Assembly (NCBI GenBank): GCA_017525025.1
Contig: JAFXUJ010000001.1
Location: 124,001 to 188,000, forward strand
Reading direction: 5' to 3'
From: Elusimicrobiaceae bacterium
GTDB lineage: Bacteria; Elusimicrobiota; Elusimicrobia; Elusimicrobiales; Elusimicrobiaceae
Length of the DNA: 64,000 bases
Each line of letters begins with the position of its first letter. Position 1 is the first letter of the stretch. The translations under genes and the position numbers were made by a program. Positions 32,135 to 39,447 of the stretch are shown here, piece after piece. A model generated the notes under the pieces. The model ran no database searches. It worked only from the letters and a program-made list of their open reading frames with translations, and was not told the DNA's origin.

Positions 32135-32686
32135 TTATTTCTTTTTAATCGGTTTGATCAGCCCGAAAGTGCCGTCAAGCCGTTTGAAAATCAAGTTAAT
32201 TTGTTTGGAATCTTCATCCAAGAAAATCCAAAAGGAATATCCCAACCGTTCCATTTCATAGGCGGCATCTTCCGGATTCATCGGATAGACTTCCACTTGC
32301 TTAATGACGGAAAACTTTACGTCCGTTTGCGGCAAGAGGATGTTGTCAGTATAAGGTTCTACCATTTCTACTTTGGCAGATTTGGAACCGATCTTGCGCG
32401 ATTTAGCTTTATTTTTAATTTTTTTAGCTTGCGCTTCCGCTTTGACGGCAGCGGCATCAATCGCTTTGTAAAGGTTGCTTTCTACGGCGCTGGCGTTAAT
32501 CGTGGTTTTGGCGCCTGTGTGTAAAATGATTTCAGCTTTTTGGTGAATTTTCTTTTCCACGGAAATCAACACTTGGGCGGAAACAATGTTGTCAAAAAAG
32601 TTTTCAACTTTGCTTACGCGCGTGTTAATAAATTCTTTAATGGCCGGAGTTAATTTAATGTTCTTGGCCGTTATTTTAATATCCAT
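32135..32686 (-). CDS. hpf: Long-form ribosome hibernation promoting factor
   Basis: 183 residues: an N-terminal HPF domain (MDIKITAKNIKLTPAIKEFI) and a C-terminal dimerisation tail (MNPEDAAYEMERLGYSFWIF), i.e. the long form that makes 100S ribosome dimers. First gene of the hprK-PTS-lepA unit, with a strong GGAGG site. Often named raiA. Confidence 0.94.
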   Translation of the reverse strand: MDIKITAKNIKLTPAIKEFINTRVSKVENFFDNIVSAQVLISVEKKIHQKAEIILHTGAKTTINASAVESNLYKAIDAAAVKAEAQAKKIKNKAKSRKIGSKSAKVEMVEPYTDNILLPQTDVKFSVIKQVEVYPMNPEDAAYEMERLGYSFWIFLDEDSKQINLIFKRLDGTFGLIKPIKKK

Positions 32687-32760: not shown

Positions 32761-32812
32761 TCGTTACGCGCGTACGTAAGGGCCCCGGAGGATCGGCAAA
32801 ATCCCTTATTTG

Positions 32813-32856
32813 CAAAAAAAGCGGGGATTTAGCGGTAAATTTGTTAAGATATAAAA
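32813..32856 (+). promoter_or_regulatory. 44-bp promoter block, copy 1
   Basis: Identical base for base to 34194-34237. It contains GCGGGGATTTAGCGG and an extended -10, TGT-TAAGAT (32842-32850). Transcription is predicted at about 32857, one base before the first RNA helix. Full identity, while the RNA after it has diverged, suggests a shared transcription factor or strong constraint. Confidence 0.65.
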
Positions 32857-33110
32857 AGCCCTGTTTGGTTATATAGGGCCGGTAGCACAGTTGGCTACCC
32901 AATTTATGCTGTTTTGGAACCCTTGCGGAAAGGGGGCACCGTTAGTGACGGTACCATTCACGCCAAAACAGCCGTTTTAGGTGGTTTGCACGCGGCCTAA
33001 TTACCCGCATGCAAACTGCCGAGTGTTCGCGTCGTCTTATGACGGCGCGGGCTACGGCTGTTTGCCTTGGAGTGCGTGAATGGTCTCCGGGCAAATGGCC
33101 GTTTTTGTTT
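32857..33110 (+). ncRNA. Structured leader RNA, copy 1 (candidate attenuator)
   Basis: About 254 nt folding into: P1 32858-62/32875-79; P2 GGTAGC/GCTACC 32881-86/32894-99; P3 10 bp 32908-17/32963-72 enclosing two hairpins (CCCTT/AAGGG and ACCGT/ACGGT); P4 hairpin 32984-95/33005-16 with loop CCTAATTAC; P5 9 bp 33028-36/33041-49; and a 13-bp 3' hairpin 33054-66/33090-102 followed by TTTTTGTTT. The loop of the last hairpin (33074-84) is the exact 11-nt complement of 32953-63, a pseudoknot. Every helix is kept with base changes in copy 2. It precedes the GT2 gene. I cannot assign it to a known RNA family. Confidence 0.8.
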
Positions 33111-33152
33111 GCGGTGATTTCTTTCCTTAGGGTGTCACTTAAGGAGAGAAAC

Positions 33153-34124
33153 ATGTCCCCGAAAATATCTGTTTTAATTCCGGTCTATAATGCCCAAAAA
33201 TATTTGCAAGCGTGCTTAGCGTCTATCCAAAAGCAAACTTTTACAGATTTTGAAATAGTTTGTTTGGATGACGGCTCCACGGATGATTCGCTTGATGAAC
33301 TAAAAAATTTTCAAAAACACGAGTCACGTTTACAGGTGCTGACCCAGGCAAATGCCGGGGTGGCGGCCACACGTAACCGTCTAATGCGCCAAGCGCGCGG
33401 AACGTATATTGCATTTGTGGATGCGGATGATGTAATTGCCCCGGATTATCTGGAAAAATTATATACGGCGGCGCAAGAGAGCGGGGCGGATATTACAAAA
33501 TGTTTTTTTAAAGAAATTAGTGAGGACGGAAAACAAATTTCTTCCGCTCGTTGTAGCCATTTATTTTATAAAACTCCTTCGGATACATTGACTAGTTGTT
33601 TTATCTGTGGTTATCACGACAGTATTGTCTGGGGGAAATTGTTCCGCCGGGCATGGCTGGAAGATATAAACATATTTTTTTTAGAGGAACGCATTTGCGA
33701 AGATTTACCATTTACCACGCAAGCTTTTTTGGAAGCCCGCCAAATTACCATTGTGCCACAACACCTTTATTTTTATCGTAAAGGATTAACCCACTGCGTT
33801 ACCACACAAGATGAGAGGGTGATTATTGATTGGTTAAAAAATTTATTGGATTTGCAACACATTTTACGTTTTCGTTCTTTGTGGAAAGACGAAGTGATTG
33901 CGCAATGGGTTAAGGTGGTTGTGTGGCGGATTTGTGCGTTTCGCAAACTTCCCGCCGCCGAACGTGCCCAATATATCCCCTTACAACAACAAGCGTTCCG
34001 GCAAGCCCGGCAAGCTGTATGGGCCGGAGGGTGGCGGAGCAAATTGCGTTGGGGCGGACTATTTGTTTTAGTGAGGTTATGTGGTTGGCGCAGTGTGTAT
34101 TTTTGGACAAAAATTTTTAGATAA
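33153..34124 (+). CDS. Family 2 glycosyltransferase
   Basis: 323 residues from ATG 33153 (AAGGAG site). GT-A fold: ISVLIPVYNAQKYLQACLAS, CLDDGSTDDSL, and the metal-binding region FVDADDVIAPDYLEKLY. The C-terminal third is basic with amphipathic helices, possibly membrane-associated. Probably adds one sugar to a surface polysaccharide. Expressed from the structured-RNA promoter; the AAGGA of its ribosome site can pair with TCCTTA at 33124-33129, so translation may be masked as well. Followed by a terminator. Confidence 0.88.
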   Translation: MSPKISVLIPVYNAQKYLQACLASIQKQTFTDFEIVCLDDGSTDDSLDELKNFQKHESRLQVLTQANAGVAATRNRLMRQARGTYIAFVDADDVIAPDYLEKLYTAAQESGADITKCFFKEISEDGKQISSARCSHLFYKTPSDTLTSCFICGYHDSIVWGKLFRRAWLEDINIFFLEERICEDLPFTTQAFLEARQITIVPQHLYFYRKGLTHCVTTQDERVIIDWLKNLLDLQHILRFRSLWKDEVIAQWVKVVVWRICAFRKLPAAERAQYIPLQQQAFRQARQAVWAGGWRSKLRWGGLFVLVRLCGWRSVYFWTKIFR

Positions 34125-34189
34125 AAAATACCCCGCATATGCGGGGCATTTTTTATAACCCAAACAACAACTACACATGGAACTCTTTA
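34125..34189. repeat. Left arm of 65-bp inverted repeat
   Basis: Matches the reverse complement of 35445-35509 at 64 of 65 positions. It includes the palindromic terminator core and extends through ATAACCCAAACAACAACTAC to AACTCTTTA. The two arms enclose RNA copy 2 and the pyruvyl-transferase gene (1,255 bp). Confidence 0.9.
34129..34154 (+). terminator. Terminator after the GT2 gene
   Basis: TACCCCGCATATGCGGGGCA palindrome followed by six Ts; same core as the one after the pyruvyl-transferase gene. Confidence 0.85.
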
Positions 34190-34193
34190 TTTT

Positions 34194-34237
34194 CAAAAAA
34201 AGCGGGGATTTAGCGGTAAATTTGTTAAGATATAAAA
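34194..34237 (+). promoter_or_regulatory. 44-bp promoter block, copy 2
   Basis: Identical to 32813-32856, including extended -10 TGT-TAAGAT (34223-34231). The predicted start, about 34238, is the first base of helix P1 of the second RNA. Confidence 0.65.
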
Positions 34238-34492
34238 GACTCTGTGTTTGTTATATGGAGTCCGTAGTGTTGTTGGCTACACGATTTAACTGTTTTTGGA
34301 TTGCCTATTAAGAATAGGTGTCACCGCTTAGGCGGTTTCGTCACTCCAAAAACAGCCGTTTAGGCGCCAAGCAAACGGACTAATTACCCGTTTGTATGGC
34401 GACGAATGCACTTGCCTTGTTTTCAAGGCAGGTGTTACGGCTGTTTGTTTTGGGTTGAGTGACGAGACCCGGGCAAATGGCCGTTTTTGTTT
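34238..34492 (+). ncRNA. Structured leader RNA, copy 2 (candidate attenuator)
   Basis: About 255 nt with the same fold as copy 1 but changed bases: P1 GACTC/GAGTC (34238-42/34258-62); P2 GTAG/CTAC; P3 11 bp (34290-300/34345-55) with an extra T-A pair; inner hairpins CCTATT/AATAGG and ACCGC/GCGGT; P4 CGCCA..CAAACGG/CCGTTTG..TGGCG with loop ACTAATTAC; P5 11 bp (34409-19/34424-34); 3' hairpin from 34437 to 34484, then TTTTGTTT. The apical GAGTGACGA (34457-65) pairs with TCGTCACTC (34338-46), a different sequence from copy 1 but the same contact. Upstream of the pyruvyl-transferase gene. Confidence 0.8.
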
Positions 34493-34527
34493 GCCTTTCT
34501 AAGCACCTTTCACCTTGGGAGGGCAAA

Positions 34528-35463
34528 ATGTTAGCCGCTATTGAAAAATGCTTGTTTGGAGTTAATAGAAATAAAATTATTGTTGATATAGCTACGGGAT
34601 ATGATGAGGGGAACTACGGCGATTTGCTGGCCCGGTACATTGTGGAGCAATTATCCGGCAAACAGATTATCAAGCATACGGGGAACAATTCTTACCATTT
34701 GTGTTCAGTCGGGTCGGTGTTAAACCGAAATAAAATGTGTTCTAATACAGTTGTGTGGGGCAGCGGATTCCTAACCCCACAAACAGCCCGGTACAAAATA
34801 GTATTAACAAAAATTAGGCAATATTTGCGTGGCAAAGTTGGCCAGCCGGTTTATTTGGCTGTACGCGGCCGAAAAACACGTGAGATTTTGTTAAAAGCAG
34901 GCTATGTTTGCCCTGAAATTTATGCGGACCCTGCCCTCATAATGCCTAAACTTTATTTCCCAAAAATTAATACGAAGTTTAAATTAGGAGTAGTACTTCA
35001 CTGGTCGCAAGAGAAATTTGCATCTATGTTTAACAACATAGAGGGTGTAAGGGTAATTAACATCAACCGTAAATATAGCGAAATCAACAGTTTTATTGAT
35101 GAAATTCTTTCATGCAATTATATATTGTCTTCCTCTTTGCATGGTTTAATAATTGCCAATGCGTATAAGATTCCTTGCGTTAGGTTGAAAATAGAAAAGG
35201 TCCCTATCGCTACTAGCGAGGAAAAAGATGATTTCAAGTTTGAAGATTATGTTTCCGGATTAAACTTATGTAAAGAAGATAAAGAAAAGCCGGATTATGT
35301 TTTCCATACGCTAACTTTAAAACCGGGAGTTAAACGACTGGATTTGATGGATTTAGTTAAAGCTCAGGCAACAAACCGAGAGTTTGTTATCAATTTAACG
35401 CCTTTAGTACAGGCCTTTCCTTTTTTGGCCTCAGCATATAAGGGTAAAGAGTTCCATGTGTAG
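34528..35463 (+). CDS. Polysaccharide pyruvyl transferase family protein
   Basis: 311 residues from ATG 34528, with GGGAGGG upstream; the longer frame from GTG 34459 would run through the RNA hairpin and is rejected. Family motifs: GNYGDLLARYIVEQL near the N-terminus, VVWGSGFLTPQ, VRGRKTREILLKAGY, YADPALIMPK, and SSSLHGLIIANAYKIPCVRL. Members attach pyruvyl ketals (or act in related sugar transfers) to capsule or teichuronic-type polymers. AT-richer than flanking core genes. Its last codons (FHV, stop) lie in the right inverted-repeat arm. Confidence 0.85.
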   Translation: MLAAIEKCLFGVNRNKIIVDIATGYDEGNYGDLLARYIVEQLSGKQIIKHTGNNSYHLCSVGSVLNRNKMCSNTVVWGSGFLTPQTARYKIVLTKIRQYLRGKVGQPVYLAVRGRKTREILLKAGYVCPEIYADPALIMPKLYFPKINTKFKLGVVLHWSQEKFASMFNNIEGVRVININRKYSEINSFIDEILSCNYILSSSLHGLIIANAYKIPCVRLKIEKVPIATSEEKDDFKFEDYVSGLNLCKEDKEKPDYVFHTLTLKPGVKRLDLMDLVKAQATNREFVINLTPLVQAFPFLASAYKGKEFHV

Positions 35464-35509
35464 TTGTTGTTTGGGTTATAAAAAATACCCCGCATATGCG
35501 GGGTATTTT
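35445..35509. repeat. Right arm of 65-bp inverted repeat
   Basis: Begins inside the last seven codons of the pyruvyl-transferase gene, runs through its 3' untranslated region and the terminator. One mismatch to the left arm (A35487 against C34147). Confidence 0.9.
35486..35509. terminator. Terminator between pyruvyl-transferase and small repeat-protein gene
   Basis: TACCCCGCATATGCGGGGTA is a perfect palindrome with TTTT on the plus side and six Ts on the minus side, so it works in both directions. Confidence 0.85.
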
Positions 35510-35525
35510 GCAAAAAGTAAACTTA

Positions 35526-35747
35526 TTAGGCGTTTACCATTTTGGCTCTGGAAATATCGCCTTTCTTATCTAAGAAATAGAGATATCCTTTTTCTTTTTT
35601 GATACCGCATTTTTCAACTTTTTTGGCTTTGCCGCCTTTTTTGCCGCCGCGGGCCATCGGTACGCGGGCGATATCACCGTCTTTATCAATGTAGTACAAG
35701 AAACCGTCTTCGCGGCTCACGCCTACTTTCAATACTTTTTCAGCCAT
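35526..35747 (-). CDS. Small two-repeat basic protein of unknown function
   Basis: 73 residues from ATG 35747 (GGAGGAG site; a TTG two codons upstream is not needed). It consists of two copies of a ~28-residue unit: KVGVSREDGFLYYIDKDGDI and KCGIKKEKGYLYFLDKKGDI, each ending R-x-x-M, joined by a GGKKGGKAKK linker. No signal peptide. The strong ribosome site and promoter suggest high expression. I do not recognise a named family; the aromatic Y-x-x-D-K-x-G-D pattern could be a beta-hairpin. Confidence 0.75.
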   Translation of the reverse strand: MAEKVLKVGVSREDGFLYYIDKDGDIARVPMARGGKKGGKAKKVEKCGIKKEKGYLYFLDKKGDISRAKMVNA

Positions 35748-35774
35748 TTTCAAACTCCTCCTTTAAAGGAATAG

Positions 35775-35964: not shown

Positions 35965-38900
35965 ATGTATTTAAAAGCAATAGAAATTACAGGCTTCAAA
36001 TCCTTCGCGGATAAATCCCGCTTGGACTTTGAACCCGGCATTACTTGTGTTGTCGGCCCTAACGGCTGCGGCAAATCCAACGTAATTGATTCGGTACGTT
36101 GGACCATCGGTGAAATGAGTTGGAAAGCGCTTCGTTCCGCTTCCATGGTGGACATTATTTTTAACGGTACGGCCAAGCGCGCTCCTTTACACATGGCGCA
36201 AGTAAGCATGATTTTTGATAATGCTTCGCGCCAACTTCCTTTAGATTTTAATGAAATTACCGTTACCCGCAAAATTTTCCGTTCCGGTGAAAGTGAGTAC
36301 TATTTAAATAAGGTACAATGCCGCCTGCGCGACATACGTGATTTGTTTTTAGATACCGGTATCGGCGGGGAAGGATACGCCATTATTGACCAGGGAGGCG
36401 TGGAGAGTGTGCTTTCCGCCTCGGCCGAGCAACGCCGGGAAATGTTTGAAGAAGTAGCCGGGGTTTCCAAATATAAAGCCAAACGCGAAGAATGTGTGCG
36501 CCGCTTGGAACGCGTAGATTTAGATTTGGCCCGCCTGGCCGACACAGTCGCCCTTATCCAAGAACAAATTAAAAAGTTGGATAGCGAAGCTAAAAAAGCG
36601 CGCCTGTATCAAAAATACCGCGAAGAATTAAAAGAAAGCGAAATTGCCATTTCCGTCTGCTCCATTAAGGAAGCCGATGGTTTAATTGCTAAACATACGG
36701 CAGAGTTGGAGCCGATTGTCAGCAAACAAACGGATTTGGAAAACCGCATTTCCGCGCAAGAAGGCGCGACGGCGGCCTTGGATTTAAATTTAACCCACAA
36801 ACAGAAAGAGATGGCGGATTTTAATGAAAAAATTTCTGCCAGCAAGTATCAAGTCGGTTTGTTGGAAGGGGCCATCAAAAATTGCGATAATTTGACGGCC
36901 GAATTAACGGCTCAGATTGCTTCCTCGGGGGCGGAGGCCCAACGCGGCCAAAGCCGGTTGCAAGAATTAACCCCTATGATTGCAAAATTAAAGGAACAGC
37001 TGACGTCCGTAACGGCGCAGTTGGATCCGTTGCAACAAGATTATAATACCCAAACGGCTACTGCCCAAAAGTTGGAGCAAGATTTGCGCCAAGCGGAAAG
37101 TGATTTGCAACGCGCTTCTAATGAGCTGATGTCTTTGGTACAAAAACAAATGGAAGTATCCAACCGCATTTCATTGGAAGAATCTTCCGCCCAGCGGGAA
37201 AATGAAGATTTGATTACGGCTGAGAAAGCCTCTCAAGCCCAAACGGCCGGGCTCGCTGAACAAGAAAAACAATTGAGTGAAATTTCCGCCCGTGTGCAAG
37301 CCGCACAACAGGCCGTCAATAAAGCCCGCGAAGAAATTACCCAGGGGGAAAATTCCTTCCAGCAATTGCAACAAGAAAGGGCTTCGCTTAATGAAAAGTT
37401 ATCGGCTGCTAAATCCTCCGCAGCTGCTTTGCGTGCCAAGTTGGAAATGATCCAAACCCAGGGGAAAAATGATCCGTACTGGGTAGGGGCGCAACTGGTC
37501 AGCAAAAGCGGTTTGTCCGGCGTGAAAGGTACGCTACGCAAAGCATTAAAATATCCGGCCGGTTTAAGTGTGGCGGTAGAAGAGGCCTTTGGAAAATATT
37601 TGGATGCCGTATTGTGTGCCGACGAAGAAACGGTGCAAGAAGCGGTGGCCTTGCTTAAAGAGAAAGGCAAGGCGCGGGCCAAATTTATTATATTGTCCCA
37701 AGTGCCGGCTACCAAAAAGAAAGCCCCACAGAATGCGTTGAAAGAACAACTTACTTATAAAGAAGAATTAGAAGATTTAGTTAACTATATCATCGGCGAT
37801 ACCCGTTACCAAGACGGAACCGTTCACGAAGAATTTTTCGTAGGGGGCGGGGCGGCGGATGTGCGCGCGCCGGAAGCCTATTGGGGAGAAGAAGGCTCCG
37901 TACGTGAAGAAATGGAAGCCAAAGCCGCCGAAGAAGCCGCGTTGTCTTCCCAAATTATTGCCAATTACGATAAACTTAAAAAAGCGGAAGAAGATTTAAA
38001 AACCTTACGCGCCAAATTGCAAGAGGCGGCAGTCGCTTTAAATACCGTTCAAAACGAGCATACCAATAAGGAACGCGAGATTGCCCAAATCAAGCAAGAA
38101 CTCGCCCGTGCCGCGCAACGCAAACAAGAGATTACCTTGCGTGTGGACACCCGGAAGCAAACGGTATCCTCTTTAAAGAAACAATTGGAAGAATTGAAAA
38201 CGGCCCACAGCCAAACACAGCGGCGGGGAGAGGACGTAAAGAAAAAACAGACCGATTTGCGGGCGCAAGCCGAGACGTTAAAAGGCACACTTAATACCCT
38301 TAGTGCGCAACTCTATGACGTGCGCATTAAAAAGAATAACATAGAGTTGGATTTAAAATCCACGGAATACGAATTTAACAGCTTAACCGATACTGAAGGC
38401 AAGCGAAATGAAAAAGTAGCGGCCTCTAATTTACGCTTGAAAAGTTTGGCCGATGAAAAGTTGGCCACGCAAGCCAAGTTATCTTCGGAACGGGATGCAT
38501 TGGCCCAATTGGAATTAACCGAGCATAAAATGCGCGGCGAAGTAGAAGCTTTGAAAAAAGAATTTAACGAGAAGACTTCCTCGCTCAATGCGTGCAAAAA
38601 AGAATATTCCGATTTAACCATTAAAAAGAACGATTTGGAAAATGCCCTTTCCAATGCGCGCCGCCAACGCACAACGGTGGTTAACAACTTGTTTGAAAGT
38701 TGGAACATCACGCCCGAAGAAGCGCAAATGCACTATGGTGAAAAAACGGTGGATTACGAGCGTGTAAAAATGATGCGCAAACGTATTGAAAATATGGGTG
38801 CTGTTAATATGACCGCGCCGGAAGAATACGATGCCCTAACCGAGCGACACAATTTCCTTAAAACCCAAATCGGTGATTTGGATACGGCCAAGAAAGATTT

Positions 38901-39447
38901 GAAGGCAGCTATTAACAAAATTAACCAAACCACACGCGAGAACTTCCGTTATACGTTTGATCAAGTACGGATGCACTTTAAGAATATTTATCAAACGTTG
39001 TTCCGCGGCGGCGAGTGCGATTTGGTGCTTACCCAGCCGGATAACTTGTTGGAAACCGGTATTGAAATTTTTGCCCAACCGCCCGGGAAAAAGCTACTCA
39101 ACATTACGTCTATGTCCGGCGGAGAAAAGACCTTGACGGCCATGTCGCTACTGTTTGCGTTCTTTACGCATAACCCGTCTCCGTTCTGTATTATGGACGA
39201 GGCGGACGCAGCCCTGGACGAAGCAAACGTGGAGCGTTACGTTAATTTGATTAAAGAATTCTCCAAAACCACGCAGTTTATCGTGGTTACCCACAACAAA
39301 CGTACCATGGAGGCCGCCCGTATGCTCTACGGTATTACCATGGAAGAAAGCGGTGTTTCTAAAGTAATGTCTGTAAACTTGTCGGACCGCGCCAGCGCGG
39401 ACGATATCAAGAAAAAAGAAGAGATAGAGGCCATGGCGGCCGCTTAG
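35965..39447 (+). CDS. smc: Chromosome partition protein SMC
   Basis: 1,160 residues. Head domain with Walker A at about 31-38 (VVGPNGCGKSN), two long coiled coils (about 170-495 and 660-990), a hinge (about 500-640, GLSGVKGTLRKALKYPAGLS), and the C-terminal head half with signature TSMSGGEKTLTAMSLLFAFF (about 1049) and Walker B FCIMDEADAALDEANVERY (about 1073). SMC loads at parS with ScpAB to organise and separate chromosomes. No scpA/scpB is next to it. Size and order fit bacterial SMC. Confidence 0.97.
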   Translation: MYLKAIEITGFKSFADKSRLDFEPGITCVVGPNGCGKSNVIDSVRWTIGEMSWKALRSASMVDIIFNGTAKRAPLHMAQVSMIFDNASRQLPLDFNEITVTRKIFRSGESEYYLNKVQCRLRDIRDLFLDTGIGGEGYAIIDQGGVESVLSASAEQRREMFEEVAGVSKYKAKREECVRRLERVDLDLARLADTVALIQEQIKKLDSEAKKARLYQKYREELKESEIAISVCSIKEADGLIAKHTAELEPIVSKQTDLENRISAQEGATAALDLNLTHKQKEMADFNEKISASKYQVGLLEGAIKNCDNLTAELTAQIASSGAEAQRGQSRLQELTPMIAKLKEQLTSVTAQLDPLQQDYNTQTATAQKLEQDLRQAESDLQRASNELMSLVQKQMEVSNRISLEESSAQRENEDLITAEKASQAQTAGLAEQEKQLSEISARVQAAQQAVNKAREEITQGENSFQQLQQERASLNEKLSAAKSSAAALRAKLEMIQTQGKNDPYWVGAQLVSKSGLSGVKGTLRKALKYPAGLSVAVEEAFGKYLDAVLCADEETVQEAVALLKEKGKARAKFIILSQVPATKKKAPQNALKEQLTYKEELEDLVNYIIGDTRYQDGTVHEEFFVGGGAADVRAPEAYWGEEGSVREEMEAKAAEEAALSSQIIANYDKLKKAEEDLKTLRAKLQEAAVALNTVQNEHTNKEREIAQIKQELARAAQRKQEITLRVDTRKQTVSSLKKQLEELKTAHSQTQRRGEDVKKKQTDLRAQAETLKGTLNTLSAQLYDVRIKKNNIELDLKSTEYEFNSLTDTEGKRNEKVAASNLRLKSLADEKLATQAKLSSERDALAQLELTEHKMRGEVEALKKEFNEKTSSLNACKKEYSDLTIKKNDLENALSNARRQRTTVVNNLFESWNITPEEAQMHYGEKTVDYERVKMMRKRIENMGAVNMTAPEEYDALTERHNFLKTQIGDLDTAKKDLKAAINKINQTTRENFRYTFDQVRMHFKNIYQTLFRGGECDLVLTQPDNLLETGIEIFAQPPGKKLLNITSMSGGEKTLTAMSLLFAFFTHNPSPFCIMDEADAALDEANVERYVNLIKEFSKTTQFIVVTHNKRTMEAARMLYGITMEESGVSKVMSVNLSDRASADDIKKKEEIEAMAAA

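Follow-up and report, generated by a model that had tools for sequence, protein, structure and literature searches.

Related systems

Invertons are invertible DNA segments with phase-variable promoters or genes. Template-switch events, described as FoSTeS/MMBIR-like or quasipalindrome events, yield templated insertions and short inverted duplications. Riboswitch or protein-dependent leaders act by transcription attenuation. Here, we describe a locus with likenesses to all of these systems, located in a window of 64,000 nucleotides (the whole stretch of DNA analyzed) from the 1.55-Mb draft genome of an Elusimicrobiaceae bacterium (G000:C15; 17 contigs). As in invertons, inverted repeats surround a surface-polysaccharide gene; unlike in invertons, there is no adjacent recombinase, the promoter lies inside the repeats and would flip with its gene, terminators stand on both sides, and relatives carry the gene in the same orientation. 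With FoSTeS/MMBIR-like templated insertions and quasipalindrome events, the locus shares patches of nearby origin in both orientations, microhomology, a palindrome at the switch point, and a recent date. It differs in that the patches happen to be a terminator and a promoter, so that the scar would make a working gene boundary, and in that the mechanism is deduced from its product. With riboswitch and attenuation leaders, the locus shares a covarying fold, an intrinsic terminator just before the ribosome-binding site, and an antiterminator helix, but the RNA belongs to no Rfam family and is found many times per genome, ahead of prepilin, glycosyltransferase, outer-membrane, and other genes.

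Organization of the locus

The locus occupies a variable slot between two conserved borders. The left border is the gene for the ribosome hibernation factor hpf/raiA (32135-32686, minus strand; Pfam PF02482 and PF16321). The structured leader RNA-1 (32899-33121, plus strand) follows, and an intrinsic terminator forms its end, where 33054-33064 pairs with 33092-33102 ahead of TTTTGTTT. RNA-1 leads a family-2 glycosyltransferase gene (GT2; 33153-34124, plus strand; Pfam PF00535, E 2.5e-37). After the left repeat arm comes a second structured leader, RNA-2 (34280-34503, plus strand), with its own terminal intrinsic terminator (34437-34447 paired with 34474-34484), and then the RNA-2-led gene for a polysaccharide pyruvyl transferase (34528-35463, plus strand; Pfam PF04230, E 1.1e-13), which runs into the right arm. 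The right border is a gene on the minus strand (35526-35750) for a small lysine-rich protein that we label H1-like; a Pfam search with this protein matched no family, and the gene was found in 91 of 101 related genomes. Beyond the slot lies the gene for the SMC chromosome-segregation protein (35965-39447, plus strand; Pfam PF02463). We use 'promoter region' for the stretch directly upstream of an RNA; the designation is putative and follows from position, and no sigma-70 consensus was scored in that stretch.

The inverted repeat

The two arms of the repeat, 34125-34189 and 35445-35509, are 65 nt each, lie 1255 nt apart, and match at 64 of 65 positions (98% complementary). The sole mismatch is at 34147, a C where the right arm predicts a T. 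No other inverted repeat of such quality exists in the 64-kb window, the runner-up being 38 nt at 71%, and a genome-wide search for further copies of the whole arm found none beyond this pair. Chance expectation for an exact inverted match of 40 nt or more is ~1e-14, and a chance origin of the 65-nt repeat is excluded. Each arm contains a palindromic terminator hairpin, the 3' untranslated region, and the last pyruvyl-transferase codons. The hairpin after GT2 (34131-34146, plus strand) consists of CCCCGCATATGCGGGG followed by CATTTTTT and folds at -18.3 kcal/mol; its counterpart in the right arm (35488-35503) is common to the convergent pyruvyl-transferase and H1-like genes. Both the degree of complementarity and the content of the arms agree with the initial annotation. 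A transposon or MITE with terminal inverted repeats was considered and rejected: the arms occur at a single site across this genome and its relatives, and comparison of the outer flanks (34115-34124 versus 35510-35519) revealed no common target-site duplication.

Polarity of the arms

Comparison with relatives tells which arm is original. Pyruvyl-transferase orthologs are present in G003 (68% identity) and G031 (65%), with a remnant in G028. In all three genomes, the gene adjoins the H1-like gene in the same orientation as here, with no repeat. The C-termini of the orthologs are similar to the codons contained in the right arm, and the 3' end of the gene together with the H1-like side can be aligned to G003 and G031. 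The right arm, comprising the last codons and stop of the pyruvyl transferase, its 3' untranslated region, and a bidirectional terminator, is thus ancestral and the source of the copy. The nearest pyruvyl-transferase orthologs have no RNA leader.

The closest glycosyltransferases, in G038 and G048 (69%), end in ATTTTTAGATAAAAAT, much as GT2 does here. In both of these genomes, ATTTTTAGATAAAAAT is followed by about 160 nt of other sequence that has no hairpin and no counterpart of the left arm. The left arm is therefore the derived element, copied in inverted form from the 3' end of the pyruvyl-transferase gene with its terminator. As scans of the genome contigs turned up no strain of this species and G038 and G048 are other species, the ancestral arrangement that they suggest for this lineage before the event is a probable one.

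A patchwork joint

Reading from left to right after the GT2 stop, the joint consists of the native GT2 end, the hairpin region, a copy of the RNA-1 promoter region, and RNA-2. The segment 34121-34146 is a direct 26/26 match to the right terminator, and 34125-34189 is the inverted match to the right arm described above. The promoter region of RNA-1 (32806-32857, plus strand) recurs at 34187-34238 (plus strand) with 50 of 52 positions matched (96%). The left join to the native GT2 end shows 5-7 nt of microhomology, and the right join, between arm and promoter copy, is the TTA at 34187-34189. The joint is thus composed of patches derived from nearby, with microhomology where they meet.

The age and nature of the promoter copy follow from two comparisons. 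In other RNA leaders, at most 31 of the 52 positions of 34187-34238 are matched, which argues that the 50/52 match does not reflect functional conservation. In addition, the bodies of RNA-1 and RNA-2 are only ~61% identical and group with the leaders of different relatives in different subclades, so the promoter stretch was copied after the two RNAs had diverged. The same contrast (RNA bodies 61% identical, promoters 96%) led us to reject a tandem duplication of RNA-1 with its promoter.

These features point to template switching near the palindromic terminator as the origin of the patchwork. We consider the repeat to be a scar left by a recent templated insertion, joined through microhomology, between adjacent RNA-led cassettes in a hypervariable slot, with a probability of about 0.7. 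In the proposed replication mechanism, strand synthesis at the GT2 end would jump to the palindromic terminator that closes the pyruvyl-transferase gene downstream, where the palindrome would be a natural turning point, and 65 bp would then be copied in inverted orientation. A second switch, at the TTA, would lead onto the RNA-1 promoter, of which about 52 bp would be copied before synthesis rejoined RNA-2. Because the hairpin is identical to its reverse complement, more than one order of switches would be possible. The initial annotation had already offered, as one of two readings, an inverted duplication with the palindromic terminator as its nucleation point; that idea fits well and is extended here by the adjoining copy of the RNA-1 promoter. 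The product would be a terminator (the left arm) followed by a promoter (the copy), making RNA-1/GT2 and RNA-2/pyruvyl transferase separate transcription units.

Alternative explanations

The initial annotation also suggested an invertible, phase-variable segment, in which homologous or site-specific recombination between the arms would, in a fraction of the cells, flip the 1.25-kb RNA-2/pyruvyl-transferase unit. The flanking inverted repeats of such a segment are present, near-perfect 65-bp arms 1.25 kb apart could support rare RecA-type inversion, and the genome encodes tyrosine and serine recombinases. These recombinases lie elsewhere, however: no Phage_integrase or Resolvase match is found beside the repeat, the nearest ones on the contig being about 100 kb away. 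The relatives all show one orientation: the orthologous gene keeps its direction in G003, G031, and G028, and slot genes at large point one way (31 of 31 in 23 relatives). Inversion would indeed leave the end of the protein intact, judging from the sequence, and would flip promoter, RNA, and gene together, the promoter copy being located between the arms. For this very reason no on/off effect is expected: the whole unit, with its own promoter, would turn between two terminators, and expression would probably not depend on orientation given this anatomy. Repeats of this kind are also no general property of the cassettes, since just one of 126 other RNA cassettes checked in this and related genomes is flanked by inverted repeats of at least 22 nt, and in that case the repeat is a terminator hairpin in the same genome. 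An invertible segment is, on balance, improbable.

The single further case belongs to the RNA cassette of an outer-membrane beta-barrel protein (L165:1414-1442 and 2526-2554; G000:C14, about 264 kb). The 29-nt terminator hairpins that flank it have the same stem and reverse-complementary 4-nt loops. It is a weak case, as the hairpin alone matches and orientation is visible only in the 4-nt loop.

The main alternative to template switching is a decayed inverted gene copy, that is, the relic of a second pyruvyl-transferase cassette that was inverted, convergent with GT2, and mostly deleted. The left arm is exactly the 3' end that such a copy would have, sharing its terminator with GT2, and a decayed second copy would leave much the same remains. 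The relic is nonetheless unlikely: three changes would be needed, namely a duplication, an inversion, and a large deletion with its end exactly at the promoter copy, and the similar age of the two patches (64/65 and 50/52) is better explained by a single event. A joint misbuilt by the assembler from repeated pieces might come to mind for a draft genome of 17 contigs and a junction made of copied segments, but the copies differ from their sources (at 34147 and at two sites in the promoter copy), so the same k-mers were not reused, and the joint lies on a 280 kb contig. We regard an assembly artefact as very improbable. With the templated insertion as the best reading, the plausible phase switch gives way to a copying scar, each piece of which is traceable at the level of single bases.

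The RNA leader

The RNA enclosed by the repeat is about 230 nt long and ends in a terminator. RNA-1 and RNA-2 fold much better than shuffled sequences, with z-scores of -6.2 and -7.0, respectively. The consensus structure from 24 sequences has 57 pairs, with standard pairs in 91% of cells; 37 of the 57 pairs show changes on both sides, and none of 500 shuffles was as good. A long-range helix, named helix X (columns 87-95 with 220-228 of alignment A2), has both-side changes in all nine of its pairs. After the last helix comes a U run, located a few tens of bases 5' of the start codon and usually separated from it by a ribosome-binding site, and CUAAUUACCC forms a loop of the leader. A near-invariant strand, AACAG(C/U)CG, has two alternative pairing partners, the upstream CUGUUUUUGG and the 5' side of the terminator, and the alternative helix is kept. 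In a rough computation that omits helix X and in which enforced pairing was apparently ineffective in some sequences, the two states mostly differ in energy by no more than a few kcal/mol.

Thus, the leader combines a covarying, conserved structure with an intrinsic terminator ahead of its gene and an alternative helix that excludes this terminator, and we read it, from the modeled folds, as a putative attenuator with an antiterminator state. Each transcription unit would open with this structured leader, which would form either the intrinsic terminator before the start codon or the long antiterminator helix, and so each gene is probably under attenuation. An Rfam search at the gathering score returned just two tRNAs in the window and no match to RNA-1 or RNA-2; permissive matches were weak and located on terminator arms, except for a 68-nt pistol-like match at 18 bits (gathering score 34.5). 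A literature search on pilin leaders and structured RNAs in Elusimicrobia-type bacteria found nothing relevant.

A covariance model finds 12 copies of the RNA in this genome and at least one in 57 of the 61 genomes of the genus. Beyond the genus, the RNA occurs in a second genus of the family and in a more distant family of the phylum, but the other family of the same order gave only marginal matches. Few candidates were scored in the genus, family, and phylum scans, and the per-genome counts are lower bounds. The patchy spread (G088, G069, and family f15) may reflect loss or horizontal transfer. Prepilin-like genes account for about 78 of the genes led by 127 RNA copies and family-2 glycosyltransferases for about 12; among the others are outer-membrane proteins (PF13505), lipoproteins, the pyruvyl transferase of this locus, and an EcoRI-type methylase. 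In that last case, one RNA copy (L215:4120-4349, L281:1520-1749) leads a gene whose product has an EcoRI-type adenine methylase domain, so genes for DNA modification are also among those that follow the RNA.

The variable slot

To survey the slot, we collected same-genus relatives in which the H1-like gene was found and counted the 40 in which a single stretch spans both borders. In 17 of these, the interval from hpf to the H1-like gene has little or no content (about 280-610 bp). In the other 23, it carries one to three genes, encoding glycosyltransferases, prepilin-like proteins, and others. All 31 coding-side slot genes of at least 150 aa in these 23 relatives share the same direction; the one open frame on the minus strand (L121, 156 aa) is probably spurious. 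Varied content and a single gene direction mark the slot as a hypervariable site for cassettes that are read in one fixed direction.

Besides gaining genes, the slot also shows their decay. G031 has the remnant of a prepilin gene between its pyruvyl transferase and the terminator, and the pyruvyl transferase of G028 is truncated (L156:1130-1500; L041:1435-1647). In roughly 15 genomes, the slot contains a conserved element that starts GAGGCGCAAAACGCnGAGGCA, just before the H1-side terminator (for example, L108:6261-6281, L118:1021-1041, L120:6331-6351, L124:6310-6330, and other slot loci). This element, which is absent from the window, could be an attachment-like site or a small RNA.

Biological significance

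The templated insertion illustrates how a single step could create a functional terminator-promoter boundary when one cassette comes to lie next to another. The RNA-led cassette system is more interesting than the repeat itself. We propose tentatively, at odds somewhat short of even, that the RNA is a new two-state cis-regulatory class by which these bacteria coordinate a large and exchangeable set of surface proteins and glycan enzymes (prepilins, glycosyltransferases, and outer-membrane proteins). Cassettes would be exchanged at fixed chromosomal slots, and template-switch joints such as this repeat would form the gene borders. An RNA outside Rfam that leads mostly prepilin genes and is widespread in the genus makes control of surface variation directly testable.
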